Notes under the pieces: model-generated | Told to the model about the DNA's origin: nothing | Databases searched by the model: none | The model's input: the letters and a program-made list of their open reading frames with translations, nothing else | Translations under genes and position numbers: made by a program | Shown here: piece after piece, positions 8,164 to 64,000 of the stretch | How positions within the stretch are numbered: the stretch's first letter is position 1 | Layout: every line of letters starts with the position of its first letter | NCBI GenBank assembly: GCA_025786725.1 | Contig: JAHLTZ010000014.1 | Span: 557,139 to 621,138 of the forward strand | Direction of reading: 5' to 3' | DNA length: 64,000 bases | Origin: Syncephalis fuscata | Lineage: Eukaryota > Zoopagomycota > Zoopagomycetes > Zoopagales > Piptocephalidaceae

Positions 8164-8942
8164 TTGAACAAAGTACCATTGCTAGTATTATAGATAACAT
8201 GGTAAAATGATAGTCATTATTAATATTGCGCTACTAATCATTGTTAAATAGATACTAAATTTATTAAACTGCCACTAATCAGCATGGTTAAATTTTAGCT
8301 ATTTTAAGCAAAACCTTAAATAAGATCATGATGGTGCCTTTATAATTACATTAGTCACCACCTCAGCTAAAACTAAAAATAAGCAGGCTCACAAGCGGCC
8401 GATTTTTAATATTCATTTTTAATACATATAAAATATTAGTTATTATTTTACATTGCACTAAAATACTGTATATTTAATAAATACTTTAAACAAGTGCCCA
8501 ATCATGTTTTGCTAATACAAAATAGTTACTGGTAAAGTTATTAAATATTAAGTCACGTCATCTAAATTAATCAGATAAAAACAGAAAAAGGTTGACTAGT
8601 GGATGATATAGCAATTTTATTTAAAAACGTTTTTACAATTACAATAATTTATGTTTGATTGGTTGCTGTTTGCTAATATTGGGGGAAATCAAACATGAAT
8701 ATACATATAACAATCTAAGCAAATATTTTAAAATAGAATCATATGTTTATTACTACAAGTTTGCATAGCTGAATAGAAAGCTAAATACAGACTTGTCGAT
8801 AACATAATGGCGCCATTGATTGAAAGCGAATAAACCGAAACATTGGACAGAACTTGATATGTAAATGGACTGAACGGCAGTTGCCAAATGATCTTGCTTA
8901 TTGATGAATGTATACCTAAAATATATCAAACTAGCGGCTCAA
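8164..8942. other. AT-rich intergenic DNA and 3' flank of the micro-exon gene
   Basis: No convincing ORF. From about 8,830 to 8,942 the minus strand is the 3' UTR of the micro-exon gene. It matches the plus strand at about 24,393-24,500 (shared strings such as gctagtttgatat / gttagtttgatat and ggcaactgcc / agcaactgcc). The rest is low-complexity AT sequence between the RAD52 stop and that UTR. Confidence 0.6.
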
Positions 8943-10848
8943 TCATGCTATCAATTTTAATGTTTTGGAAGATCCAATTATTCTATTTTATAAATACATA
9001 AAAAACATGTCGTATAATTAGCATATAAATTAGCAATATATATATATAGCATCACTTACAAACTATTAATGTCAAATTATTAAATACACAGCGTATAGTA
9101 TATAAATAACTTAGGGATAATCAAGACTTAGCAACACTTACATCCTATCAATGCTCAAATTATTAAAATGAATAATGTATAATCAATCGATATACAAAGT
9201 AACTTACCAGCTATCAATGCAGATTAATGGACATATAGTGCGCATAATTTAGTTAGTGCATATTTGATACATGACATTACTTACGAGCTATCAATACAGA
9301 TTATTAAACATGCGGTAAACACTATATCATTAGTAAATAGACACTTGATATAAAATGCTACTTACAACCTTTCAATGCAAATTATCAAAAAACACAGTGC
9401 ACAGTGCATAATTAGTATATAGTTAGTTAATATTCAATGTCACTTACCGGCTACCAATACAAGTTATTAAGACAGAAAGTATACAGGATATAGTTAACAT
9501 ATAGCTAATTAATATAAAATACCACTTACAAGCTATTAATGCCGAATTATTAAACAAATAACGAATGATTTTTTTTAATATATATAGGTAACTAATACAC
9601 AATATTACTTACTAGCTATTGATATTAAGTAATTAAACACACACGCAACACACAGATGCGTTAATGCACAATAATTGGTGTACGAGGCCACTTACGAGCT
9701 GTTAATAGCAAATTATTATACAATGTATAACATATGTTTAATACTTAATTACTTAGTACAAAATATCACTTACTATCTAGTAATACAAGTTATTAAACAC
9801 AGATAGCGCGTAGTATGTAATCAGTGTATAGCCAATTAATCTATTAAATCGCTTACTCTCTGCCAATATAGCATATTAAGCACAAAAATCGCATTGAATA
9901 TGTTTAATTTATAGTTAATTGATATATATGTTACTTACTAGCTATCAATGTAATATTATTAAGCACGTAAAGTACATAGTATTTGTTTAGTGTGAGGCTA
10001 TCTAATCTACTATGTAACTTACAAGCTATTCGCACAAGTTATTGCGTACACACAATGCATAGCGTTTATTTAGCGTATGACTAATTAACATAAAATATTA
10101 CTTACTTCCTATCGATGCAATTTATTAAACAACAGAGCATAACGCGTGATTAATGCATGGTATTTGGTATACAACAAAGCTTACTATCTATTAATAACAA
10201 AGTTAAACACACGCAATATATGACACTCAATTAGTACATAATTAGTAAATATATAATAGCACTTACCGTCTATTACCAAAAAAATATTAATAACACGCAG
10301 TATATGGCATATGTTCAACGGACATCCGATTAATATACACATTACTTACCACCTGTTAATATTGATTTGTTGATAAACACGATATATAGCATGTAATTAG
10401 CTTATAGTTGAGTAATGTGCAATAACACTTACCAACTATTAATATTAAATTCCAAACACAGGTAATGTATAGTATATGTTTAGCGCATATTTAGTTGATA
10501 TACAATACTAATTACCGGCTATAAATACAAGTTATTCAACAAAAACGAGATATTACGCGTGTTTAGCACGTAATTGATCATATAAAATGCCACTTACCAT
10601 CTATTAACATCGAATTAGCAAACATACGTGATATATAAAATATTTAGTAAATAGTCAATCGGCAGACAATACCACCTACCAGCTATAAATATTATTTGGT
10701 AATAAAAACAATATTTAGTTGGATGACTAATTAATTGTTGTAACTATAACATACCACGGCGGGCTAAAATTGGCCTAGCATCCACAACGGCTGTAATAGC
10801 CACCAAGGCCACGACGATGGTGTAGATAACGACAATAGAAAGCTTCAT
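8943..10848 (-). CDS. Secreted prepropeptide gene with 21 consecutive 3-nt micro-exons
   Basis: No family recognised. Exon 1 is 10848-10755 (94 bp). It encodes a signal peptide (MKLSIVVIYTIVVALVAIT...), a short pro-piece RPILARR, and ends in phase 1 before GTATGT. Then come 21 exons of exactly 3 nt, each between an AG acceptor and a GTAAG-type donor: 10680-82, 10598-600, 10516-18, 10433-35, 10350-52, 10267-69, 10185-87, 10106-08, 10023-25, 9939-41, 9857-59, 9774-76, 9696-98, 9613-15, 9530-32, 9448-50, 9366-68, 9285-87, 9208-10, 9142-44, 9060-62. The last exon starts at 8947 and reads into TGA at 8945-8943. Fully spliced, the frame is open and gives a 53-aa product. Its 22-residue tail begins ADAVGDDRTS, ends PTSGSPGFS, and follows a dibasic ARR. 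All micro-exons are symmetric (phase 1-1), so skipping any of them keeps the frame and the stop. Splicing is inferred from sequence only. Confidence 0.75.
8948..10754 (-). repeat. Tandem array of about 82-bp intron + 3-nt exon units
   Basis: Twenty-two introns in a row. Intron 1 is 72 bp, the next twenty are 63-81 bp (most 79-80), and the last is 112 bp. Each starts with GTAAGT or a close variant (GTATGT, GTAGGT, GTAATT, GTAAGC) and ends in TAG, CAG or AAG, usually as attgatag or attaatag. The introns are related to one another: most carry, in the same order, an AT-rich block after the donor, a taattagctata-like block, a gcgttgtgtgttta-like block, and aataacttgtattgatag before the acceptor. 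The period of about 82 bp is visible on the plus strand as cttac...ctatcaat recurring 21 times. The array therefore arose by duplication or repeated insertion, not by chance. Confidence 0.85.
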
Positions 10849-48328: not shown

Positions 48329-51300
48329 TTATCCAGAGGTTTGCCATTCAGTCTTTTGACCATTGGCCGTAGTCTTAGTATAATACTTGGTCACGGTTAC
48401 TTTGTCGCCATCTGTTACGGTCTCAGTACGGACAACCAAAACAGTACCGTCAGAATCAGTGCTTTCCTCAATGACCTCCTCAACAATTGGACCATCTTCT
48501 TCCTCGCCTTCAATAAATTGAACCTCAGAGTGAGTTGTTTGTTGTTGCTGTTGAGCAGGTGCAGCCACTGTAGTAGCTACTGGAGCTGGAGCTGGGACTG
48601 AGACAGTCTCTTGCATCACTGGCTGCTCCTCAGTAGTTGACCATTCAGATACTACGCCATTCAATGTCTTAGTAAAGTATTTGGTGATACGGCAACTAGT
48701 AGCTCCAGTAATGGTCACAGTTCGAATAACAAGACGGCCACCATCAACGTCAACGGTCTCTTCGATACCTTCTTGCATTGCTTCTCCTACACCAGCTACC
48801 GGCTGAGCGGCGACGTTAGCCTGTGCCGTTTGAGTAATATCAGCAGCAATAGAAATGGTTGCAGTAGCGGCGGCAGTAGCGGCAGCAGCAGCAGCATCAG
48901 GACTTGGACCGGCAGGAACAGCAACCCAAACACCACCAGCGTTCAGTTGTTCAACATCACTAGTAACCCATTGGCTTATTTGACCGTTCAAGTTTTTAGT
49001 AAAGTACTTGGTAATACGACGAGTATGGCTATCGGCAATAGTAACAGTGCGGATTGTCAAATGACCTCCATCAGTATCGGTAGTTTCTTCTGTGGATTCT
49101 TGAACAGCATCATTAGCAGCACCAGCTGCAGCACCGTCTTGAGCACTAACCGCCGCAGTAGAAGCGGCACCAGCAGGAACGGCTTCCCAAACACCATCAG
49201 CATTTAATTGCTCGACATCGCTTGTCATCCATTGGCTTATTTGACCGTTCAAGTTTTTAGTAAAGTACTTGGTAATACGACGAGTATGGCTATCGGCAAT
49301 AGTAACAGTGCGGATTGTCAAATGGCCTCCATCAGTATCGGTAGTTTCTTCTGTGGATTCTTGAACAGCATCATTAGCAGCACCAGCTGCAGCACCGTCT
49401 TGAGCACTAACCGCCGCAGTAGAAGCGGCACCAGCAGGAACGGCTTCCCAAACACCATCAGCATTTAATTGCTCGACATCGCTTGTCATCCATTGGCTTA
49501 TTTGACCGTTCAAGTCTTTAGTAAAGTACTTGGTAATACGACGAATATGGCTGTCGGCAACAGTAACAGTGCGGATTGTCAAATGGCCTCCATCAGTATC
49601 TGTAGTCTCTTCGGTAGTTTCTTGAGCAGCATCATTAGCAGCACCAGTCTCAGGACCAGGACCAGGTGGCACAACTTCCCAAACGCCTTCAGCATTAAGT
49701 CGTTCACTATCGCTAGTAACCCATTGTGTAGTTTCGCCATTAAGTACCTTGGTATAATATTTTGTAACTTGACGAATATACGTGTCGGCATTAATAACAG
49801 TGCGAATGGTTAGCTTACCACCATCAGTATCGGTCTTTTCTTCAGTAAAATCTTGAACACCAACAGCGGTATTAGCAGCAGCGCCTGCGCCTACGCCAGC
49901 AGCAGCTGTTGTGGTTTGACCAATGACACCTGATGATTGAATGGCTGGCCCGGCTGCTTGTGTAATCTCTTGATGAGCTGCATGGGCTCCAGTCTTGATA
50001 CTGCCTGATGCACCAACAACTGACGTCGATCCATCGGCATTAACAACAATGTCGCCAGCTACTGATGTCTCGCCTTCGGCCTTAGCTACAATTGGTTCAA
50101 CATCGCTCGTCATCCACTGGGTAACTTGACCGTTAAGTGTTTTGGTGAAGTATTTGGTAATACGACGAACTTGAGTATCCGATATGATCACAGTGCGAAT
50201 GGACAAATGGCCGCCATCAGTGTCGGTCTCTTCTGTGGTAAACTCTTGAATACCACCTGATGGTCCAACAATGGTGACATCTTGTGGAGCTGGTGCAACT
50301 GGAGCGGCTGGCTGTTCAAGTGGCTGTTCTTCAGTATTCGACCATTCAGTGACTTCACCATTCAATGTGCGAGTGTAGTACTTGGTAATGCGGCGACAAC
50401 GACGTGTACGAACAGTAACTGTGCGTGTTACTAAACGGGCTCCTTCGGCATCAATGGTCTCATCAACTGCTTCTTCCGGCTCTCCAATCACCTCTTCATC
50501 AATTTCAGTGGCAGCTGTTGTGGTAGTGCTCGAGTCTACAACAACATTTTTATCATCACAGGTAGCTGACTTGGTGACTGCATCAGTGACTGCGCCTACG
50601 CCAGCAGCAGCTGTTGTGGTTTGACCAATGACACCTGACGATTGAATGGCTGGCCCAGCTGCTTGTGTAATCTCTTGATGAGCTGCATGGGCTCCAGTCT
50701 TGATACTGCCTGATGCGCCAACAACTGACGTCGATCCATCGGCATTAACAACAATGTCGCCAGCTACTGATGTCTCGCCTTCGGCCTTAGCTACAATTGG
50801 TTCAACATCGCTCGTCATCCACTGGGTAACTTGACCGTTAAGTGTTTTGGTGAAGTATTTGGTAATACGACGAACTTGAGTATCCGATATGATCACAGTG
50901 CGAATGGACAAATGGCCGCCATCAGTGTCGGTCTCTTCTGTGGTAAACTCTTGAATACCACCTGATGGTCCAACAATGGTGACATCTTGTGGAGCTGGTG
51001 CAACTGGAGCGGCTGGCTGTTCAAGTGGCTGTTCTTCAGTATTCGACCATTCAGTGACTTCACCATTCAATGTGCGAGTGTAGTACTTGGTAATGCGGCG
51101 ACAACGACGTGTACGAACAGTAACTGTGCGTGTTACTAAACGGGCTCCTTCGGCATCAATGGTCTCATCAACTGCTTCTTCCGGCTCTCCAATCACCTCT
51201 TCATCAATTTCAGTGGCAGCTGTTGTGGTAGTGCTCGAGTCTACAACAACATTTTTATCATCACAGGTAGCTGACTTGGTGACTGCATCAGTGACTGCGC

Positions 51301-54300
51301 CTACGCCAGCAGCAGCTGTTGTGGTTTGACCAATGACACCTGACGATTGAATGGCTGGCCCAGCTGCTTGTGTAATCTCTTGATGAGCTGCATGGGCTCC
51401 AGTCTTGATACTGCCTGATGCACCAACAACTGACGTCGATCCATCGGCATTAACAACAATGTCGCCAGCTACTGATGTCTCGCCTTCGGCCTTAGCTACA
51501 ATTGGTTCAACATCGCTCGTCATCCACTGGGTAACTTGACCGTTAAGTGTTTTGGTGAAGTATTTGGTAATACGACGAACTTGAGTATCCGATATAATCA
51601 CAGTGCGAATGGACAAATGGCCGCCATCAGCGTCAGTCTCTTCTGTGGTAAACTCTTGAATACCACCTGATGGTCCAACAATGGTGACATCTTGTGGAGC
51701 TGGTGCAACTGGAGCGGCTGGTTGACTATCAGCCTGCTTTTGTTCTTCGACAACGATGTTTTTAGTGGCAGTGGTTTCAGAGCAGCTTGAAGTATCTACA
51801 TCTACATTCACAGCAGCAGCTTCAGTTGCAACATCGGAAAGCACTGTCTCCTCAGTAGTTGTGATTATGGTCTTAGACTGCAAATCTGTCTCTTGTCTCG
51901 TTGTAGAGCAATCAACTTCCTGAATAATAGAAGTATCATGCTGTTCAATTGAGACTGTAGTTGAGTCGACGTGCTCTTCTACTGTAGTAGAAGTTTCTGC
52001 CTGGCACTCCACTATAGCACTTGTTTCTGTCGAAGTTGCAATGTCGTCTGACTCTGTTACAGTCTTCACAATCTCTACTGAATTATTGGAAGTCTGTATA
52101 ATAATTGTACAATTAATTCAATATAATAAATATATTTACATATTTACTTACCTCAAACGATTCTTGTTGTTGAGTGTTATTCTTAGTAGCAGAGCTCTTG
52201 GAAGAAATGATGGCAGCTCCGGCAGCAACTCCAGCGACAGCAGCAATACCGGCAACGACGGCAGCCGTTTTAGTCGCACTCGACGTCTTTTTAGTAGTCG
52301 ATGAAGAACCCGTTGATCTTGTTGATTCAATTGGCACTGGTGTAGAGTCGGCTGATTTGGTCGACTCCATCGACGCCGAAGCAGAACCCGTTGATCTAGT
52401 TGTTTCAACTGGTACTGGTGTAAGACCGGGCTCTTTAGCCATGGCGGGGCGGTTAGAGCGATGACGTCTACGGCGTCTCTTGCCAGTACCTGTGCCACTA
52501 GCTTCAGTAGAAGCTGGCTGCTCTCCAGATTTGGCCTTGCGGTTCTTCTTGGCACGATGCTTCTTGTGACGATGCTGCTTCTTACGACGAAGTCTCTTCT
52601 CTTTACGCCGTTCCTCACGTGCAGCCACCGCCTCTGGCGACATATCTTTAGGACCATCACCTTCCTCTTCATCGGAAGATATATCCTCACTGTCCAATGA
52701 AGCATCAGACAATAATTCCTCGTTGCTTTCATCAGCATCAGAAAGGCCAATGTCATTTTCGCTATCTTCTTCAGATTCAGGTTCCGGTTCAGGGACAGCA
52801 ACTGAAGCCTCTGGTTTAGCTGTTACAGCGGCCGCAACAGCAGCTGTAGTTGCAGCCACAGCAGTTGCAGCAGCTACAACACCCTTTTGGCCGTGGTTCT
52901 TGCGACGGTTCTTCTTCTTCTTCTTTCGTCGGCCACCAGCGCCACTAGCACCGCCATCGGCACCTTGTGGCAAGTCAGTTTCTGAATCACTTTCCTCCAA
53001 CTCCTGGCTGTCTGAAGCTGTATCAGCACCAACTTCAATCTCAACTTCATGCTCCTCAGGCACATCTAAAGCAACTTCAACAACTTCGATCGACTCTTCG
53101 CTGCGCTCTACATTCCAAGTCAAAATCAATCGATAGATAAAGCGACGTCCAAATCGAACAACAACTTGTTGCTGTTGTGTCTCTTCAGTCTTCGTCTCAG
53201 TATCAGCTTCAACCAACACACTACGCTCAACAGTTCGACCTTCTGCAGTAATCCATACATAGATTGTACGACGAATAAACAGTATACCGCCGCGAGTAAT
53301 TGAATCGGCAGTGGCCACTTGACGGTCAATAGATAAATCGGACTCAACCAAATCGACTGTTCTAAAACGCTCCTCGCCAGTAAGTTCATCCCAATAAAGA
53401 ATCTGCCAAATAACACAGCGACGTCCGTCGCGAGTAACAATAATAGCATCGTCAAATTGTTGGTCCGGATATACAGCAGCAGTGTGGACTACATCGCGCA
53501 CAAATTGTTCAGTGGCAACATTCCAACGAACAATAGCTCGGCGTACATATTCTTGTCCAGAGCGAATTAGACAAGTAGGAGCACTTCGAGTTAATTGTGC
53601 TCGATCATATGTTACATTGGCACTCTCAACCAAATACTCGATAGTACGTGTAATAATTGTCAAGGTAATAACGCACCAAATGGTAATTGTACGGCGAATA
53701 AAGCGACGACCGTCACGTACCACGATCTCTGATGTTACATCAGCATCTGATGAATCGCTATCAGAAGCAATATCAATTTCCTCACGGCGCGTAGTTCTGG
53801 TAGTTTCATCCCAAACATAAACAACACGACGAAGGAAGCGGCGTCCATTGTGAGTGACTGGCGTTACATGTCGTGCTACTGGATTGCCTGGTCGATTATA
53901 GGACTCGTCGGGAACCTCTATCTTATCATTAATAAACGATTTAGTTATTACATCCCATCGAATAATGTAACGAATAACATAATAACGACCATTACGCTCT
54001 ACCGTGGTGACAGTATCTGTGTTTTCAAGTACATCGTCCGTTATATGAACAAATTCTCGAACTTCACGTTGTTGCTGCACATCCCAGCGAACGACTAGAC
54101 GCCGTGTAAATGTACGACCTTCAACTACAACACCAGATGCAGCTGCCAAAGCATTTGGTTGTGCTGCAACATATGTAAGAGCATTGTAATCGTCGGCATC
54201 AATTTCAACGACTTCTTCAATCTCCGTGGCCTGAACTACACTCCAGCAGTATATAACAATACGAATGAATCGACGACCATTACGAACAACTTCTTCGACT

Positions 54301-57300
54301 TGCTTCATGGCCAATTGGTCGGCGCTAATAGAATCGGCAGCAACTTCAATCTCCTCATTAACTTCTTGCTGTTGTGATTCTGACCAACGAGTAATAACAC
54401 GGCGAATATAGCGCTTGCTGTCATTACGAATAACCACATCAGTAGCTCCATTGGAAAATACTTGACCAGTACAATGATAGACATCGTCAGCAGAAAGTTC
54501 AACTTCTCTTGAAACAGCTGACTGCGTGCTGTTATCCCAAAAAGTAACCACATAACGAATAAAGCGTTTTCCATCACGAACTACTATAGCGTCGTTCTCT
54601 TCTTCTACAGTAGCGGCTGATTCTAAATCGTCCAAAGCAACTTCATATGCCTCATTTACAATTGAGCTAGAAATAATATCCCATCGTGTAAATACTCGAC
54701 GAACAAATCGTCGCTGCGAACGAACAATAATGCCAGATTCAATAGATACATTATAAGCATCTGCTGATAGTGATTGCTCAATGTCTATAGTAGGCAATAA
54801 CAAGGCGGCTTCTGTAGGTCTATCAGCTTGAGCTTGGGCAGCTTCTTCAGCAGTCAAATTCATTGGCATATTAATAGGTTTACGCAAGCTCTTCTTTTCG
54901 TCATCAGCTTGCGTAGAATGGTCATGAACGCCAAATAGCTTGCTAAAGAATCCAGACTTGCGAGACGAGTGTTTCTGTTGTGATAGTAACACACCAGCAA
55001 TAACCGCACTAGCAGCGGCAGTAGATACTGCCGTGGCAGCCACTGCAGTCGTCAATATAGAGCCGGACTCGGCCTCGACCTTCACCACTTCGTCGGTGAC
55101 TTGCTGCACATCGTCCATAGCAAGTTCGACTTCTTCGGTCGCTGTCTTGTTTTCTTCGATGCTCCAGTACGTAAATACACGACGCACGAAGCGGCGGCCA
55201 TTGCGCTCAACAATCGTCTCGGACTCGGCATCGACGCTGGCTGCTTCTTTAATGTCTTCTACCGCAACTTCGACTTCTTGCTGCACTTCCTTGTTTTCTT
55301 CAACACTCCAGCGAGTGAATACGCGACGAACAAACACGCGGCCTTGTCGGACAACTACGCCAGATGTTGCAAGTGCCGATGTCGTCTCCGACTCGACCTT
55401 AATGACCTCGCCGTGCACTTGCTGCACCTCATCGGCAGCTACCTCTACATCTTCGCTAACCGTTGTGTTCTGTTCGGTGCACCAACGGCTGATGGTGCGG
55501 CGTACGAAGCGGCGGCCATTGCGAACAACAATTGCCTCAGAGCTGGCTTCAACACTTGCGGCTTCTTTAACGTCTTCAACCGCGACTTCAGCTTCACGCT
55601 GGACTTCTCGGTTCTCTTCAACGCTCCACCAAGTGAACACACGACGTACAAACAAGCGGCCATTGCGTACAACTACGCCAGATGTAGCAACAGTGTCGGC
55701 TGCTACCACAGTGGCAAGCGTAGAGCCAGACTCGGCTTCTACTTTGACTACTTCGTCGCTAACTTGCTGGACATCATCCACGGCAATCTCGACCTCGTCA
55801 GTGACCGTCTTGTTCTCTTCAGCACTCCAGCGTGTAAATTGGCGGCGTACAAAGCGACGACCATTGCGCTCAACAATCGATTCAGAGTCGACATCAATAC
55901 TAGCTGCTTCTTTGACTTCATCGGCAGCCAACTCGACTTCAACCTGGACCTCTTCGTTCTTTTCAGCGTCCCAATGCGTAAATAGACGACGAATAAACAC
56001 ACGACCATCACGAACGGCTGAGCTGGCAACAATGGCGACGGCTCCGGTAGCTGCTGCAACACCAACAACGGCAGCTGTCGTGGCTGCAGCGGCACTTGTA
56101 GTGATTGCTGTCACAAGTCCACTGCCGGCTTCCGACTCGACCTTGGTGACCTCGACTGTAGCTTCTTGCACTTCATCCACGGCAAGTTCGACTTCTTCGG
56201 TCACCGTCTTGTTTTCTTCGATGCTCCAGTACGTAAATACACGACGCACGAAGCGGCGGCCATTGCGCTCAACAACCAATTCAGATGTCGACTCGACAGT
56301 AGCTGCTTCTTTAATGTCTTCTACCGCAACTTCGACTTCTTGCTGCACTTCCTTGTTCTCTTCAACACTCCAGCGAGTAAACAAACGACGAACAAATAGA
56401 CGGCCTTGACGGACTGCAACTCCAGCTGAAGCTGCTGTGGCAACTGCGGCTTCGGTCAATATGCTGCCAGACTCGGCCTCTACCTTAACCACTTCTTCAC
56501 TGGCCTGTTGCACCTCATCAACGGCAACTTCGACTTCATCGGTCACCGTCTTGTTCTCTTCAACGTTCCAGTGCGTGAATTTACGACGTACAAATCGACG
56601 GCCATTGCGCTCGACAACGGCTTCGGCCTCGGCCTCGGCGGTGATGTTGGCTGCTTCTTTGACTTCTTCAGCGTCAACTTCGACCTCGACTTGGACCTCT
56701 TCGTTCTTTTCAGCATCCCAGCGCGTAAACAAGCGACGAACAAATAGACGGCCTTGACGGACTGCAACTCCTGCTGCTGCTGTGGCAACGACTGCTGTGG
56801 CTGCTGTGGCTGCAACTGCTGTCGTCAATATCGAGCCAGACTCAGCCTCGACCTTCACCACTTCGTCGGTGACTTGCTGCACATCGTCCACAGCTACTTC
56901 AACTTCTTCAGTCACGGCCTTGTCTTCTTCAACACTCCAGCGTGTAAAGTAGCGACGCACAAAACGACGGCCATTGCGCTCAACAATCGTCTCGGACTCG
57001 GCATCAACGCTGGCTGCTTCTTTGACTTCATCGGCAGCTAGCTCGACCTCGTACTGGACTTCCTTGTTCTCTGCAGTATTCCACCATGTGAATACGCGAC
57101 GAACAAACACGCGGCCTTGTCGGACAACTACGCCAGATGTTGCAAGTGCCGATGTCGTCTCCGACTCGACCTTAATGACCTCGCCGTGCACTTGCTGCAC
57201 CTCATCGGCAGCTACCTCTACATCTTCGCTAACCGTTGTGTTCTGTTCGGTGCACCAACGGCTGATGGTGCGGCGTACGAAGCGGCGGCCATTGCGAACA

Positions 57301-60300
57301 ACAATTGCCTCAGAGCTGGCTTCAACACTTGCGGCTTCTTTAACGTCTTCAACCGCGACTTCAGCTTCACGCTGGACTTCTCGGTTTTCTTCAACGCTCC
57401 ACCAAGTGAACACACGACGTACAAACAAGCGGCCATTGCGTACAACTACGCCAGATGTAGCAACAGTGTCGGCTGCTACCACAGTGGCAAGCGTAGAGCC
57501 AGACTCGGCTTCTACTTTGACTATTTCGTCGTTAACTTGCTGGACATCATCCACGGCAATCTCGACCTCATCAGTGACCGTCTTGTTCTCTTCAGCACTC
57601 CAGCGTGTAAATTGGCGGCGTACAAAGCGACGACCATTGCGCTCAACAATCGATTCAGAGTCGACATCAATACTGGCTGCTTCTTTGACTTCATCGGCAG
57701 CCAACTCGACTTCAACCTGGACCTCTTCGTTCTTTTCAGCGTCCCAACGCGTAAATAGACGACGAATAAACACACGACCATCACGAACGGCTGAGCTGGC
57801 AACAATGGCGACGGCTCCGGTAGCTGCTGCAACACCAACAACGGCAGCTGTCGTGGCTGCAGCGGCACTTGTAGTGATTGCTGTCACAAGTCCACTGCCG
57901 GCTTCCGACTCGACCTTGGTGACCTCGACTGTAGCTTCTTGCACTTCATCCACGGCAAGTTCGACTTCTTCGGTCACCGTCTTGTTTTCTTCGATGCTCC
58001 AGTACGTAAATACACGACGCACGAAGCGGCGGCCATTGCGCTCAACAACCAATTCAGATGTCGACTCGACAGTAGCTGCTTCTTTAATGTCTTCTACCGC
58101 AACTTCGACTTCTTGCTGCACTTCCTTGTTCTCTTCAACACTCCAGCGAGTAAACAAACGACGAACAAATAGACGGCCTTGACGGACTGCAACTCCAGCT
58201 GAAGCTGCTGTGGCAACTGCGGCTTCGGTCAATATGCTGCCAGACTCGGCCTCTACCTTAACCACTTCTTCACTGGCCTGTTGCACCTCATCAACGGCAA
58301 CTTCGACTTCATCGGTCACCGTCTTGTTCTCTTCAACATTCCAGTGCGTGAATTTACGACGTACAAATCGACGGCCATTGCGCTCGACAACGGCTTCGGC
58401 CTCGGCCTCGGCGGTGATGTTGGCTGCTTCTTTGACTTCTTCAGCGTCAACTTCGACCTCGACTTGGACCTCTTCGTTCTTTTCAGCATCCCAGCGCGTA
58501 AACAAGCGACGAACAAATAGACGGCCTTGACGGACTGCAACTCCTGCTGCTGCTGTGGCAACGACTGCTGTGGCTGCTGTGGCTGCAACTGCTGTCGTCA
58601 ATATCGAGCCAGACTCAGCCTCGACCTTCACCACTTCGTCGGTGACTTGCTGCACATCGTCCACAGCTACTTCAACTTCTTCAGTCACGGCCTTGTCTTC
58701 TTCAACACTCCAGCGTGTAAAGTAGCGACGCACAAAACGACGGCCATTGCGCTCAACAATCGTCTCGGACTCGGCATCAACGCTGGCTGCTTCTTTGACT
58801 TCATCGGCAGCTAGCTCGACCTCGTACTGGACTTCCTTGTTCTCTGCAGTATTCCACCATGTGAATACGCGACGAACAAACACGCGGCCTTGTCGGACAA
58901 CTACGCCAGATGTTGCAAGTGCCGATGTCGTCTCCGACTCGACCTTAATGACCTCGCCGTGCACTTGCTGCACCTCATCGGCAGCTACCTCTACATCTTC
59001 GCTAACCGTTGTGTTCTGTTCGGTGCACCAACGGCTGATGGTGCGGCGTACGAAGCGGCGGCCATTGCGAACAACAATTGCCTCAGAGCTGGCTTCAACA
59101 CTTGCGGCTTCTTTAACGTCTTCAACCGCGACTTCAGCTTCACGCTGGACTTCTCGGTTCTCTTCAACGCTCCACCAAGTGAACACACGACGTACAAACA
59201 AGCGGCCATTGCGTACAACTACGCCAGATGTAGCAACAGTGTCGGCTGCTACCACAGTGGCAAGCGTAGAGCCAGACTCGGCTTCTACTTTGACTACTTC
59301 GTCGCTAACTTGCTGGACATCATCCACGGCAATCTCGACCTCGTCAGTGACCGTCTTGTTCTCTTCAGCACTCCAGCGTGTAAATTGGCGGCGTACAAAG
59401 CGACGACCATTGCGCTCAACAATCGATTCAGAGTCGACATCAATACTGGCTGCTTCTTTGACTTCATCGGCAGCCAACTCGACTTCAACCTGGACCTCTT
59501 CGTTCTTTTCAGCGTCCCAACGCGTAATAGACGACGAATAAACACACGACCATCACGAACGGCTGAGCTGGCAACAATGGCGACGGCTCCGGTAGCTGCT
59601 GCAACACCAACAACGGCAGCTGTCGTGGCTGCAGCGGCACTTGTAGTGATTGCTGTCACAAGTCCACTGCCGGCTTCCGACTCGACCTTGGTGACCTCGA
59701 CTGTAGCTTCTTGCACTTCATCCACGGCAAGTTCGACTTCTTCGGTCACCGTCTTGTTTTCTTCGATGCTCCAGTACGTAAATACACGACGCACGAAGCG
59801 GCGGCCATTGCGCTCAACAACCATTCAGATGTCGACTCGACAGTAGCTGCTTCTTTAATGTCTTCTACCGCAACTTCGACTTCTTGCTGCACTTCCTTGT
59901 TCTCTTCAACACTCCAGCGAGTAAACAAACGACGAACAAATAGACGGCCTTGACGGACTGCAACTCCAGCTGAAGCTGCTGTGGCAACTGCGGCTTCGGT
60001 CAATATGCTGCCAGACTCGGCCTCTACCTTAACCACTTCTTCGCTGGCCTGTTGCACCTCATCGACGGCAACTTCGACTTCATCGGTCACCGTCTTGTTC
60101 TCTTCAACATTCCAGTGCGTGAATTTACGACGTACAAATCGACGGCCATTGCGCTCGACAACGGCTTCGGCCTCGGCCTCGGCGGTGATGTTGGCTGCTT
60201 CTTTGACTTCTTCAGCGTCAACTTCGACCTCGACTTGGACCTCTTCGTTCTTTTCAGCATCCCAGCGCGTAAACAAGCGACGAACAAATAGACGGCCTTG

Positions 60301-63300
60301 ACGGACTGCAACTCCTGCTGCTGCTGTGGCAACGACTGCTGTGGCTGCTGTGGCTGCAACTGCTGTCGTCAATATCGAGCCAGACTCAGCCTCGACCTTC
60401 ACCACTTCGTCGGTGACTTGCTGCACATCGTCCACAGCTACTTCAACTTCTTCAGTCACGGCCTTGTCTTCTTCAACACTCCAGCGTGTAAAGTAGCGAC
60501 GCACAAAACGACGGCCATTGCGCTCAACAATCGTCTCGGACTCGGCATCAACGCTGGCTGCTTCTTTGACTTCATCGGCAGCTAGCTCGACCTCGTACTG
60601 GACTTCCTTGTTCTCTGCAGTATTCCACCATGTGAATACGCGACGAACAAACACGCGGCCTTGTCGGACAACTACGCCAGATGTTGCAAGTGCCGATGTC
60701 GTCTCCGACTCGACCTTGGTGACCTCGCCGTGCACTTGCTGCACCTCATCGGCAGCTACCTCTACATCTTCGCTAACCGTTGTGTTCTGTTCGGTGCACC
60801 AACGGCTGATGGTGCGGCGTACGAAGCGGCGGCCATTGCGAACAACAATTGCCTCAGAGCTGGCTTCAACACTTGCGGCTTCTTTAACGTCTTCAACCGC
60901 GACTTCAGCTTCACGCTGGACTTCTCGGTTCTCTTCAACGCTCCACCAAGTGAACACACGACGTACAAACAAGCGGCCATTGCGTACAACTACGCCAGAT
61001 GTAGCAACAGTGTCGGCTGCTACCACAGTGGCAAGCGTAGAGCCAGACTCGGCTTCTACTTTGACTACTTCGTCGTTAACTTGCTGGACATCATCCACGG
61101 CAATCTCGACCTCATCAGTGACCGTCTTGTTCTCTTCAGCACTCCAGCGTGTAAATTGGCGGCGTACAAAGCGACGACCATTGCGCTCAACAATCGATTC
61201 AGAGTCGACATCAATACTGGCTGCTTCTTTGACTTCATCGGCAGCCAACTCGACTTCAACCTGGACCTCTTCGTTCTTTTCAGCGTCCCAACGCGTAAAT
61301 AGACGACGAATAAACACACGACCATCACGAACGGCTGAGCTGGCAACAATGGCGACGGCTCCGGTAGCTGCTGCAACACCAACAACGGCAGCTGTCGTGG
61401 CTGCAGCGGCACTTGTAGTGATTGCTGTCACAAGTCCACTGCCGGCTTCCGACTCGACCTTGGTGACCTCGACTGTAGCTTCTTGCACTTCATCCACGGC
61501 AAGTTCGACTTCTTCGGTCACCGTCTTGTTTTCTTCGATGCTCCAGTACGTAAATACACGACGCACGAAGCGGCGGCCATTGCGCTCAACAACCAATTCA
61601 GATGTCGACTCGACAGTAGCTGCTTCTTTAATGTCTTCTACCGCAACTTCGACTTCTTGCTGCACTTCCTTGTTCTCTTCAACACTCCAGCGAGTAAACA
61701 AACGACGAACAAATAGACGGCCTTGACGGACTGCAACTCCAGCTGAAGCTGCTGTGGCAACTGCGGCTTCGGTCAATATGCTGCCAGACTCGGCCTCTAC
61801 CTTAACCACTTCTTCACTGGCCTGTTGCACCTCATCAACGGCAACTTCGACTTCATCGGTCACCGTCTTGTTCTCTTCAACATTCCAGTGCGTGAATTTA
61901 CGACGTACAAATCGACGGCCATTGCGCTCGACAACGGCTTCGGCCTCGGCGGTGATGTTGGCTGCTTCTTTGACTTCTTCAGCGTCAACTTCGACCTCGA
62001 CTTGGACCTCTTCGTTCTTTTCAGCATCCCAGCGCGTAAACAAGCGCGAACAAATAGACGGCCTTGACGGACTGCAACTCCTGCTGCTGCTGTGGCAACG
62101 ACTGCTGTGGCTGCTGTGGCTGCAACTGCTGTCGTCAATATCGAGCCAGACTCAGCCTCGACCTTCACCACTTCGTCGGTGACTTGCTGCACATCGTCCA
62201 CAGCTACTTCAACTTCTTCAGTCACGGCCTTGTCTTCTTCAACACTCCAGCGTGTAAAGTAGCGACGCACGAAGCGACGGCCATTGCGCTCAACAATCGT
62301 CTCGGACTCGGCATCAACGCTGGCTGCTTCTTTGACTTCATCGGCAGCTAGCTCGACCTCGTACTGGACTTCCTTGTTCTCTGCAGTATTCCACCATGTG
62401 AATACGCGACGAACAAACACGCGGCCTTGTCGGACAACTACGCCAGATGTTGCAAGTGCCGATGTCTCCGACTCGACCTTAATGACCTCGCCGTGCACTT
62501 GCTGCACCTCATCGGCAGCTACCTCTACATCTTCGCTAACCGTTTGTTCTGTTCGGTGCACCAACGGCTGATGGTGCGGCGTACGAAGCGGCGGCCATTG
62601 CGAACACAATTGCCTCAGAGCTGGCTTCAACACTTGCGGCTTCTTTAACGTCTTCAACCGCGACTTCAGCTTCACGCTGGACTTCTCGGTTCTCTTCAAC
62701 GCTCCACCAAGTGAACACACGACGTACAAACAAGCGGCCATTGCGTACAACTACGCCAGATGTAGCAACAGTGTCGGCTGCTACCACAGTGGCAAGCGTA
62801 GAGCCAGACTCGGCTTCTACTTTGACTACTTCGTCGCTAACTTGCTGGACATCATCCACGGCAATCTCGACCTCATCAGTGACCGTCTTGTTCTCTTCAG
62901 CACTCCAGCGTGTAAATTGGCGGCGTACAAAGCGACGACCATTGCGCTCAACAATCGATTCAGAGTCGACATCAATACTGGCTGCTTCTTTGACTTCATC
63001 GGCAGCCAACTCGACTTCAACCTGGACCTCTTCGTTCTTTTCAGCGTCCCAACGCGTAAATAGACGACGAATAAACACACGACCATCACGAACGGCTGAG
63101 CTGGCAACAATGGCGACGGCTCCGGTAGCTGCTGCAACACCAACAACGGCAGCTGTCGTGGCTGCAGCGGCACTTGTAGTGATTGCTGTCACAAGTCCAC
63201 TGCCGGCTTCCGACTCGACCTTGGTGACCTCGACTGTAGCTTCTTGCACTTCATCCACGGCAAGTTCGACTTCTTCGGTCACCGTCTTTTTTCTTCGATG

Positions 63301-64000
63301 CTCCAGTACGTAAATACACGACGCACGAAGCGGCGGCCATTGCGCTCAACAACCAATTCAGATGTCGACTCGACAGTAGCTGCTTCTTTAATGTCTTCTA
63401 CCGCAACTTCGACTTCTTGCTGCACTTCCTTGTTCTCTTCAAACTCCAGCGAGTAAACAAACGACGAACAAATAGACGGCCTTGACGGACTGCAACTCCA
63501 GCTGAAGCTGCTGTGGCAACTGCGGCTTCGGTCAATATGCTGCCAGACTCGGCCTCTACCTTAACCACTTCTTCACTGGCCTGTTGCACCTCATCAACGG
63601 CAACTTCGACTTCATCGGTCACCGTCTTGTTCTCTTCAACATTCCAGTGCGTGAATTTACGACGTACAAATCGACGGCCATTGCGCTCGACAACGGCTTC
63701 GGCCTCGGCCTCGGCGGTGATGTTGGCTGCTTCTTTGACTTCTTCAGCGTCAACTTCGACCTCGACTTGGACCTCTTCGTTCTTTTCAGCATCCAGCGCG
63801 TAAACAAGCGCGAACAAATAGACGGCCTTGACGGACTGCAACTCCTGCTGCTGCTGTGGCAACGACTGCTGTGCTGCTGTGGCTGCAACTGCTGTCGTCA
63901 ATATCGAGCCAGACTCAGCCTCGACCTTCACCACTCGTCGGTGACTTGCTGCACATCGTCCACAGCTACTTCAACTTCTTCAGTCACGGCCTTGTCTTCT
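48329..64000 (-). CDS. Giant repeat protein (3' part; 5' end beyond the window)
   Basis: Not recognised. Exon 2 is 52093-48329 and the upstream exon runs from beyond 64,000 to 52152. The 58-bp intron 52094-52151 (gtaagt...tatacag, phase 0) joins ...QQQESFE to TSNNSVEIV, so the long frames on either side are one gene of more than 5,000 codons here. The large N-terminal part is built from pairs of units around xGRRFVRRxFTRWxxEENKxV (a likely beta-hairpin), a charged EVExAxDEV segment and Ala/Val/Thr-rich spacers. About twelve diverged units follow (53.1-54.8 kb), then a basic/acidic linker (KKKKKNRRKNHGQ, LRRKKQHRHKKHRAKKNRK) and an Ala/Gly/Val helix (AAVVAGIAAVAGVAAGAAII). The C-terminal part repeats DxDGGxLxIRTVT...RRITKYFTKxLNGQxxxW. 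From 59.5 kb on, single-base losses interrupt the frame. Role unknown; a wall, surface or scaffold protein is conceivable. Confidence 0.8.
48947..49640 (-). repeat. 261-bp in-frame tandem repeat in the giant gene
   Basis: 48947-49207 and 49208-49468 are nearly identical 87-codon units (TDTDGGHLTIRTVT...RRITKYFTKNLNGQISQW, then LNADGVWEAVPAG). A third, more diverged unit follows. The length is a multiple of three, so expansion leaves the frame open. Confidence 0.85.
49887..51720 (-). repeat. 705-bp in-frame tandem repeat in the giant gene
   Basis: Copies begin at 49887, 50592 and 51297 (exact spacing 705 bp, 235 codons); the third is partial. Each full copy carries two hairpin units of different subtype (DADGGHLSIRTVIISD... 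and DAEGARLVTRTVTVRT...) plus a TTTAAAGVGA-type spacer. Copies differ at only a few bases. Confidence 0.9.
54980..64000 (-). repeat. 1,773-bp higher-order tandem repeat in the giant gene
   Basis: The same landmark recurs at 56974, 58747, 60518 and 62284, i.e. spacings 1773, 1771 and 1766; the shortfalls equal visible small deletions. One period is 591 codons and contains ten GRxFVRR units in five pairs, with one long Ala/Val/Thr-rich segment (AAVVGVAAATGAVAIVASSA). The 3'-most copy (54,980-55,450) is a hybrid: units 5-10 are collapsed into one fused pair, a footprint of unequal exchange. The array continues past the window. Confidence 0.92.

Follow-up and report, generated by a model that had tools for sequence, protein, structure and literature searches.

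Can a gene be built from exons that are each a single triplet long? The question is raised by a locus on the minus strand of the 64-kb window, the whole stretch of 64,000 nucleotides of Syncephalis fuscata DNA analyzed here, for which a sequence-only reading had proposed 21 consecutive exons of exactly 3 nt behind an ATG exon. A pattern count and a gene model both bear out this proposal. AG-N3-GTAAG occurs 20 times on the minus strand of the window, 19 of them within 8943-10848, and 4 times on the plus strand, with none in that interval. The model is a dynamic programming procedure that leaves the length of internal exons free between 1 and 30 nt, with a mild penalty away from 3, and makes no use of the reading frame (hereafter frame-blind). 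For this gene it returned a first exon of 94 nt (10848-10755), internal exons of exactly 3 nt in 21 of 21 cases, and introns spanning 63-81 nt. Exon 1 (10755-10848) begins with ATG, encodes MKLSIVVIYTIVVALVAITAVVDARPILARR plus 1 nt, ends in phase 1 at a GTATGT donor and, by direct reading of its translation, holds a signal-peptide-like leader with a hydrophobic stretch and an ARR site. On the same strand there follow, from the first 3-nt exon to the twenty-first, CTG (10680-10682), ATG (10598-10600), CCG (10516-10518), TTG (10433-10435), GTG (10350-10352), ACG (10267-10269), ATA (10185-10187), GAA (10106-10108), CTT (10023-10025), CTA (9939-9941), AGA (9857-9859), ATA (9774-9776), CTC (9696-9698), CTA (9613-9615), CTT (9530-9532), CCG (9448-9450), GTT (9366-9368), CTC (9285-9287), CTG (9208-9210), GAT (9142-9144), and TTT (9060-9062). 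All but the first and third, whose donors are GTAGG and GTAAT, are placed by the pattern as well as by the model, so that 19 of the 21 donors are strict GTAAG.

The end of the gene required a correction. The original proposal of an open frame in the joined pieces stands, since the joined triplets contain no stop and give ADAVGDDRTSKNTPTSGSPGF behind the leader, a peptide without Cys. A last exon opening at 8947 and closed by TGA does not stand as well, because that acceptor needs a last intron of 112 nt, whereas an acceptor at 8982 leaves 77 nt and meets a stop, T/AA, immediately. The sequence that starts at 8982 is AATAATTGG, and relatives have AATAACCG (L069 and L041) or AATAATCG (L052 and L043) at the start of their terminal exons. 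The terminal exon first proposed is therefore probably wrong and 8982 the true last acceptor. From the length of the last intron and the likeness to relatives, we place the predicted terminal exon, consisting of the stop and the 3′ UTR, at 8830-8982 on the minus strand, with the low end at 8830 carried over as the earlier guess. Taken by itself, the window gene makes a weaker case for coding and leans on its family, in which stop avoidance across introns, a shared Cys pattern, and intron-free relatives all lend support to a gene of consecutive 3-nt exons.

Judged by its sequence, the window gene is one member of a large family, which is more than the earlier reading had said. In the 28.95-Mb S. 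fuscata genome, at least 150 places match its leader at E<=0.001 (150 of 274 candidates scored), some of them on small, possibly redundant contigs. Genome-wide, AATAG-N3-GTAAG is found 3442 times (control 86), AATAG-N4-5-GTAAG 239 times (control 250), and AATAG-N6-GTAAG 112 times (control 72). The strong excess is thus at 3 nt, as only this spacing lies far above its control. Adjacent pairs of 3-nt units number 3109, in contrast to a single pair for a reversed-pattern control. Because 409 of the 552 three-nt exons in our modelled set fit the strict pattern, 3442 minus 86 translates into an estimated genome total of about 4500 single-codon exons. A search of proteins with a family profile recovered 11 annotated proteins at E<=0.01, all 11 from S. 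fuscata. P0121 and P0124 are intron-free Cys-rich members, P0127 and P0130 look like translation running into an intron, and none of the 11 is a recognizable array product. Gene finders thus seem to miss array genes, and similar genes may be hidden elsewhere. The profile returned no schistosome or aphid proteins, a distant relation being beyond the reach of such a search, and a near-mode search of a plasmid collection gave no match. Closely similar array genes lie on one contig at G000:C1:475325 and 534307, at C1:576392 and 609265, and at C2:225326 and 244718; both C1 pairs are in inverted orientation.

Twenty-five array genes were modelled, comprising the window gene and 24 loci that came from three locus searches (17, 2, and 5). 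Loci L051, L057, and L067 are intron-free; L055 was left out as truncated at a contig end; no leader was found for L062, L065, and L066; L059-L061 repeat loci already included; and L008 is outside the modelled set. With the near-copy L040 removed, the frame-blind models contain 560 internal exons, of which 530 are 3 nt long, so the coding region behind the first exon is mostly in very small symmetrical exons. The longest run of 3-nt exons is 49, in L050. For L043 and L046 the model yields a single exon apiece, as it is halted by a long insertion. In array genes with a modelled chain, the length of exon 1 is 94 or 97 nt, which corresponds to phase 1. With L040 counted, there are 585 internal exons, and 12 of them have lengths not divisible by three. 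An upstream AG accounts for two of the 12 (in L068 and L072), another two fall within an insertion in L058, and the rest belong to L039, L040, L044, L047, L056, and L063, a group in which some genes appear broken. The 6-nt exons of several genes have an acceptor three bases upstream, with TTAG replacing TTAATAG. A second, frame-aware set of models forces open frames and skips at least one unit in L039, L040, L044, L047, L056, L063, L069, and L071; it was used for peptides, cysteines, and paralogue comparisons, and never for the stop test described below. Several irregularities were seen along the way. Frame-blind models of L039, L040, L044, and L047 have units of 1, 2, 7, or 13 nt or disturbed splice sites, and these genes look broken. 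In frame-aware models of L043, L046, L044, L045, L054, and L058, one or two array introns are swollen to about 480-900 nt; several of these have TTGAAGAGCTTGTGA... in common by eye, and in L043, L045, L046, and L058 the array resumes in frame beyond the swollen intron. Locus L073 (G000:C242:93900-96300, minus strand) has a different leader followed, by pattern, by 13 candidate 6-nt exons and a few of 3 nt, which makes it a candidate two-codons-per-exon array. Its leader matches only itself in the genome, and in this assembly the leader frame is interrupted before it reaches the RR site.

Does the mRNA contain the triplets joined to one another? In phase 1, one base of a codon comes from the end of a triplet and the other two from the start of the triplet that follows. 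Such codons straddle introns and exist only when neighboring triplets are spliced together. Among 482 cross-intron codons, which are not independent because the genes are related and only the near-copy L040 was removed, we found no stop, whereas 20.0 were expected when the order of triplets was shuffled within runs (2000 shuffles, minimum 10). Cys codons across introns numbered 58 versus 37.5 expected on shuffling. A smaller set, without L040, L044, and five later loci, gave 0 stops in 314 codons (13.6 expected), and the main group, with 19 entries but no run from L067, L043, or L046, gave 0 in 375 (18.05 expected). The six genes without Cys, when pooled, have 0 in 107 versus 1.88 expected, which is too few expected to be informative by themselves, and the window gene has 0 in 20 split codons versus 0.66 expected, a comparison with no power. 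Read as whole codons in phase 0, the triplets contain only 2 stops in 530, a shortage that may reflect interference of stop triplets with splice signals, and a frame shifted one base further contains 31 in 482. Since triplets in phase 0 are poor in stops too, only the order-shuffling comparison is specific to joining.

The joined products provide a second line of evidence. Examples of joined peptides are GDPAQCAACVENCKRRTGLDWGKCRNGSCRTIC for L042 and GSYEECKACMVVCKDRGELSKEQCQGKCYNQC for L072. Exactly six Cys are present in 10 of 25 joined models (L043 and L046 being close copies), L050 has eight, seven models have between 1 and 5, and the other seven lack Cys; the frame-aware models behind these counts skip units in eight genes, and nothing in them favors Cys. 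Eight of the ten six-Cys models fit C-x(2-3)-C-x(2-3)-C-x(5-14)-C-x(2-4)-C-x3-C, with L052 and L068 departing from it. The RR before the mature part is presumably a Kex2-type site. L071 and P0126 have a second dibasic site behind the leader (AVAPLAKR and AVEPLAKR, respectively), as in twice-cut precursors. In database searches, nothing exceeded curated cut-offs for 16 proteins in Pfam or 4 in NCBIfam, and a search of PDB sequences with the family profile gave 0 matches. The joined peptide of L042 resembles the scorpion short toxin family Toxin_2 (E 2.5e-4, 21.7 bits, below the cut-off of 25.1), which is a hint at most, and Toxin_2 matched none of the other 15 proteins tested against Pfam. Weak matches to Toxin_2, Cys_box, Arch_flagellin, Importin_rep_4, DUF4245, and Syntroph_Cxxx, all below curated cut-offs, were rejected. 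A structure prediction for the intron-free relative P0121 with P0124 was set aside for its low mean pLDDT of 56.8. Syncephalis, of the Zoopagales, is a genus known as mycoparasites, and peptides that are often Cys-rich, bear a leader, and change fast suggest effectors or toxins against the host fungus.

The intron-free relatives supply a further view of what a joined gene may look like. L051, L057, and L067 run from the common leader through a Cys-rich body to (C/G/A)ATAATC(G/A)ATGG without introns. A sequence like this last one directly follows the last acceptor in 4 of the 15 array genes compared (L042, L043, L052, and L058); the starts of the terminal exons in the remaining genes have diverged, and most have sequence in common further on. 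The 300-nt 5′ flanks of L051 and L057 are 83-90% identical to those of five array genes, and such flanks are 85-87% identical among array genes themselves (three pairs). With the same leader, a body in the position of the array, and matching terminal sequence and flanks, the intron-free relatives look like fully joined array genes. They may have been copied from spliced RNA or may represent the ancestral state.

Comparison of paralogues indicates how the arrays change. Paralogues differ in whole units, as in L047 with 30 (one of them damaged) and L048 with 26. Microexon sites also diverge more than introns in nine of ten paralogue pairs. Microexon versus intron divergence is 0.277 versus 0.061 in L048/L047 (with exon 1 at 0.000), 0.232 versus 0.122 in L052/L044, 0.333 versus 0.187 in L069/L064, 0.464 versus 0.105 in L049/L048, 0.461 versus 0.095 in L049/L047, 0.667 versus 0.216 in L048/L070, 0.564 versus 0.182 in L054/L058, and 0.762 versus 0.267 in L054/L045. 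The close pair L046/L043 has a small excess (0.042 versus 0.026), and the exception, L041/L040, is another close pair with none (0 of 81 versus 0.011). Exon 1 divergence in the ten pairs ranges from 0 to 0.117. For 231 unit pairs chosen for like flanks, the triplet difference is 0.481, and the same test on 35 pseudo-exons inside introns gives a mean of 0.103 and a maximum of 0.259. Selection on amino acids is a likely cause of this triplet change.

Taking these results together, we consider it very probable that the window gene belongs to a large family that codes for small, putatively secreted peptides, with the mature part spread over exons of one codon each and all exons joined. Exon 1 would provide the signal-peptide-like leader and the RR site, probably for Kex2-like cleavage, and would end in phase 1, so that each 3-nt exon completes one codon with two bases and opens the following codon with its third, until the terminal exon supplies the stop. 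The array genes would be transcribed, and ordinary short introns (GTAAGT...TTAATAG, about 78 nt) would be removed by intron definition with every exon kept, probably 5′ to 3′ with the exon growing stepwise. Intron definition would be the natural mode, as the exons are too short for recognition and the introns are short with good ends. The 530 array introns have GT donors in 516 cases and GC in 14, with a median length of 78 nt. Another gene in the window has two candidate introns of 56 and 64 nt with ends of the same kind (a third, at 43 nt, is a questionable candidate), and the array introns, like these in their ends and not far from them in size, fit removal by intron definition. The window also contains a very long repetitive coding region on the minus strand at 52113-64000, with a recurring NGRRFVRRxFTxW motif and units of about 1770 nt as measured from 24-nt repeats at 56765, 58538, 60309, 62075, and 63839, and a 261-nt tandem repeat at 48908-49647 (2.8 copies, 94% matches) within a 1262-aa open frame. 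Across the family, whole exon-intron units are duplicated and lost singly or in blocks, adding or removing amino acids without a frame shift, and the triplets outpace the adjoining introns, as expected under diversifying selection on, for example, host-directed effectors or toxins. The sequence itself shows the arrays, selection for ordered joining of neighbors, the Cys pattern, the gain and loss of units, and the rapid change of triplets, whereas transcription, the mode of splicing, secretion, processing, and role are inferred. On this reading, constitutive splicing appears to assemble the single-codon exons into mini-proteins that evolve fast.

Several alternatives have to be weighed against this reading. 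A donor immediately after an acceptor is the hallmark of a ratchet point, and the 3-nt units could be recursive-splicing points or decoys through which the array is removed stepwise as one long intron, leaving no triplet in the mRNA. Acceptor does adjoin donor in these units, and many terminal exons stop within a few codons, so a leader spliced to the terminal exon would also make a tidy short peptide. However, an mRNA of that kind would give no reason for stops to be absent from codons that require joined neighbors, for a Cys pattern to emerge in the joined reading, or for the Cys-rich body of the intron-free relatives to sit at the same place, and we regard this explanation as highly improbable. 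Combinatorial exon skipping, by which the array would yield many peptide variants, is suggested by the fact that nearly all exons are multiples of three in one phase and can be skipped without loss of frame; schistosome micro-exon genes (MEGs) are said to operate by skipping (PMC4350168). Yet stops occur at chance level at junctions where one exon is skipped (23 of 438, 19.0 expected) or two (23 of 411, 17.9 expected), and skips would alter the Cys spacing. Consecutive joining thus appears to be under selection and the products of skipping not to be guarded against. Skipping as the function of the array is improbable, and occasional skipping is compatible with the data. For the window gene, a decayed or inactive state is rather unlikely. 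Its peptide contains no Cys, and its neighboring introns are only 64% alike, the lowest value among the 11 arrays measured. Against decay, AG, exactly 3 nt, and GT are kept in 21 of 21 units despite the divergence of the introns, no joined stop has arisen, and the leader is intact. Moreover, the gene groups with four array genes that also have no Cys (L040, L041, L064, and L069; support 99/95), so the absence of Cys would be a feature of a subfamily.

Two further alternatives concern how the arrays came about and why their triplets change. The arrays could have originated by insertion, with an intron-free Cys-rich gene receiving a copy of an introner-like intron in every codon; the introns would be alike because they are copies and the triplets unlike because they are old coding sequence. 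Intron-free relatives do exist, and within arrays it is the introns that are alike, with neighbors 64-81% identical in 11 arrays. Distant introns are only slightly less alike than neighbors (0.81 at distance 1 and 0.72 at distance 12 in L049; 0.64 and 0.63 for neighboring and distant introns of the window gene), and triplets differ at 1.55 of 3 positions over the full set of 97 within-gene unit pairs whose flanks are alike. Insertion into every codon, always in phase 1 and up to 49 times consecutively, is nevertheless hard to obtain, and paralogues differ by entire units. Among the 40 closest unit pairs, all six that lie within one gene (L049, L052, and L004) have the same triplet, which argues for duplication of exon and intron together. 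The three intron-free genes are also scattered over a tree built from leaders and 3′ sequence (3 changes, one group in 0% of 200 bootstraps), although this tree is poorly resolved and a single grouping is not rejected by an AU test (p 0.33). On balance, we find origin by insertion unlikely. As for the fast change of the triplets, targeted mutation, or gene conversion that keeps introns alike, could take the place of selection on the peptide. Exon change is spread evenly over the three codon positions (22/110, 22/109, and 24/112 in four pairs), and with no concentration at non-wobble positions, selection on amino acids is not separable from a mutational cause by this measure. One unit of L047 and L048 even has identical 60-nt flanks on both sides of different triplets. 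On the other side, the genes compared conserve their leader exon and avoid stops, which points to selection on a translated sequence. Targeted mutation or gene conversion is the less likely cause.

How does a proposed family of secreted peptides with one codon per exon compare with known systems? MEG exons are 6-36 nt long and of mixed length. In the account drawn on here, MEGs encode secreted parasite proteins with a coding region mostly in very small symmetrical exons, and their mature parts have a higher dN/dS than their signal peptides, exceeding 1 in three families (PMC4350168). The S. fuscata family shares the small symmetrical exons and the fast change in putative effectors; it differs in that nearly all of its exons are 3 nt, and its stop test speaks against the skipping that MEGs use. 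Exons of aphid bicycle genes encode 5-20 amino acids each, and paired CYC motifs characterize the family. These genes are described as a large, fast-evolving family of putative effectors with many small exons, nearly all starting at codon position 2; they average about 17 exons, and one relative has more than 100 microexons (PMC9168663). Internal exons of the window gene likewise start at codon position 2, given a phase-1 exon 1 and 21 exons of 3 nt, whereas bicycle exons hold several codons and the organism and protein are different. To our knowledge, single-triplet exons are not the rule in MEGs or bicycle genes. Isolated 3-nt micro-exons occur in animals and plants and share the single triplet, but as single cassettes among normal exons rather than in arrays of up to 49. 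Introners and stwintrons are repeated introns scattered among genes, and introner copies sit in genes unrelated to one another, often flanked by a target-site duplication. Many near-identical introns per genome are described for them in fungi (PMC8469720). In contrast, the S. fuscata introns examined here follow one another in tandem within one gene family and seem to spread together with the exon by unit duplication. Recursive splice sites have the same succession of acceptor and donor, without the three nucleotides between that, per the stop test, appear to be kept. A full-text literature search, with most subscription papers and bioRxiv outside its reach, turned up neither a 3-nt exon array nor a paper dealing with the S. 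fuscata family.

If transcripts confirm the arrays, the spliceosome joins up to 49 consecutive single-triplet exons with fidelity enough for selection to act on the products, and the lower bound of exon size across a whole gene family would be one triplet. Exon definition can hardly work on 3-nt exons, so that the family would offer a natural setting in which to test pure intron definition and the order of splicing. It would also link micro-exon architecture to fast-evolving secreted proteins for a third time, after schistosomes and aphids, and here in a fungus. A bolder proposal, on which we are evenly divided, is that some 150-200 secreted-peptide genes use the single codon as their coding unit, that their exons are all joined in order, and that homologous introns between every two codons enable single amino acids to be gained, lost, or swapped by recombination with the frame preserved. 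If true, this would be exon shuffling at one-codon resolution, a standing device of S. fuscata for the rapid diversification of peptides against its host.
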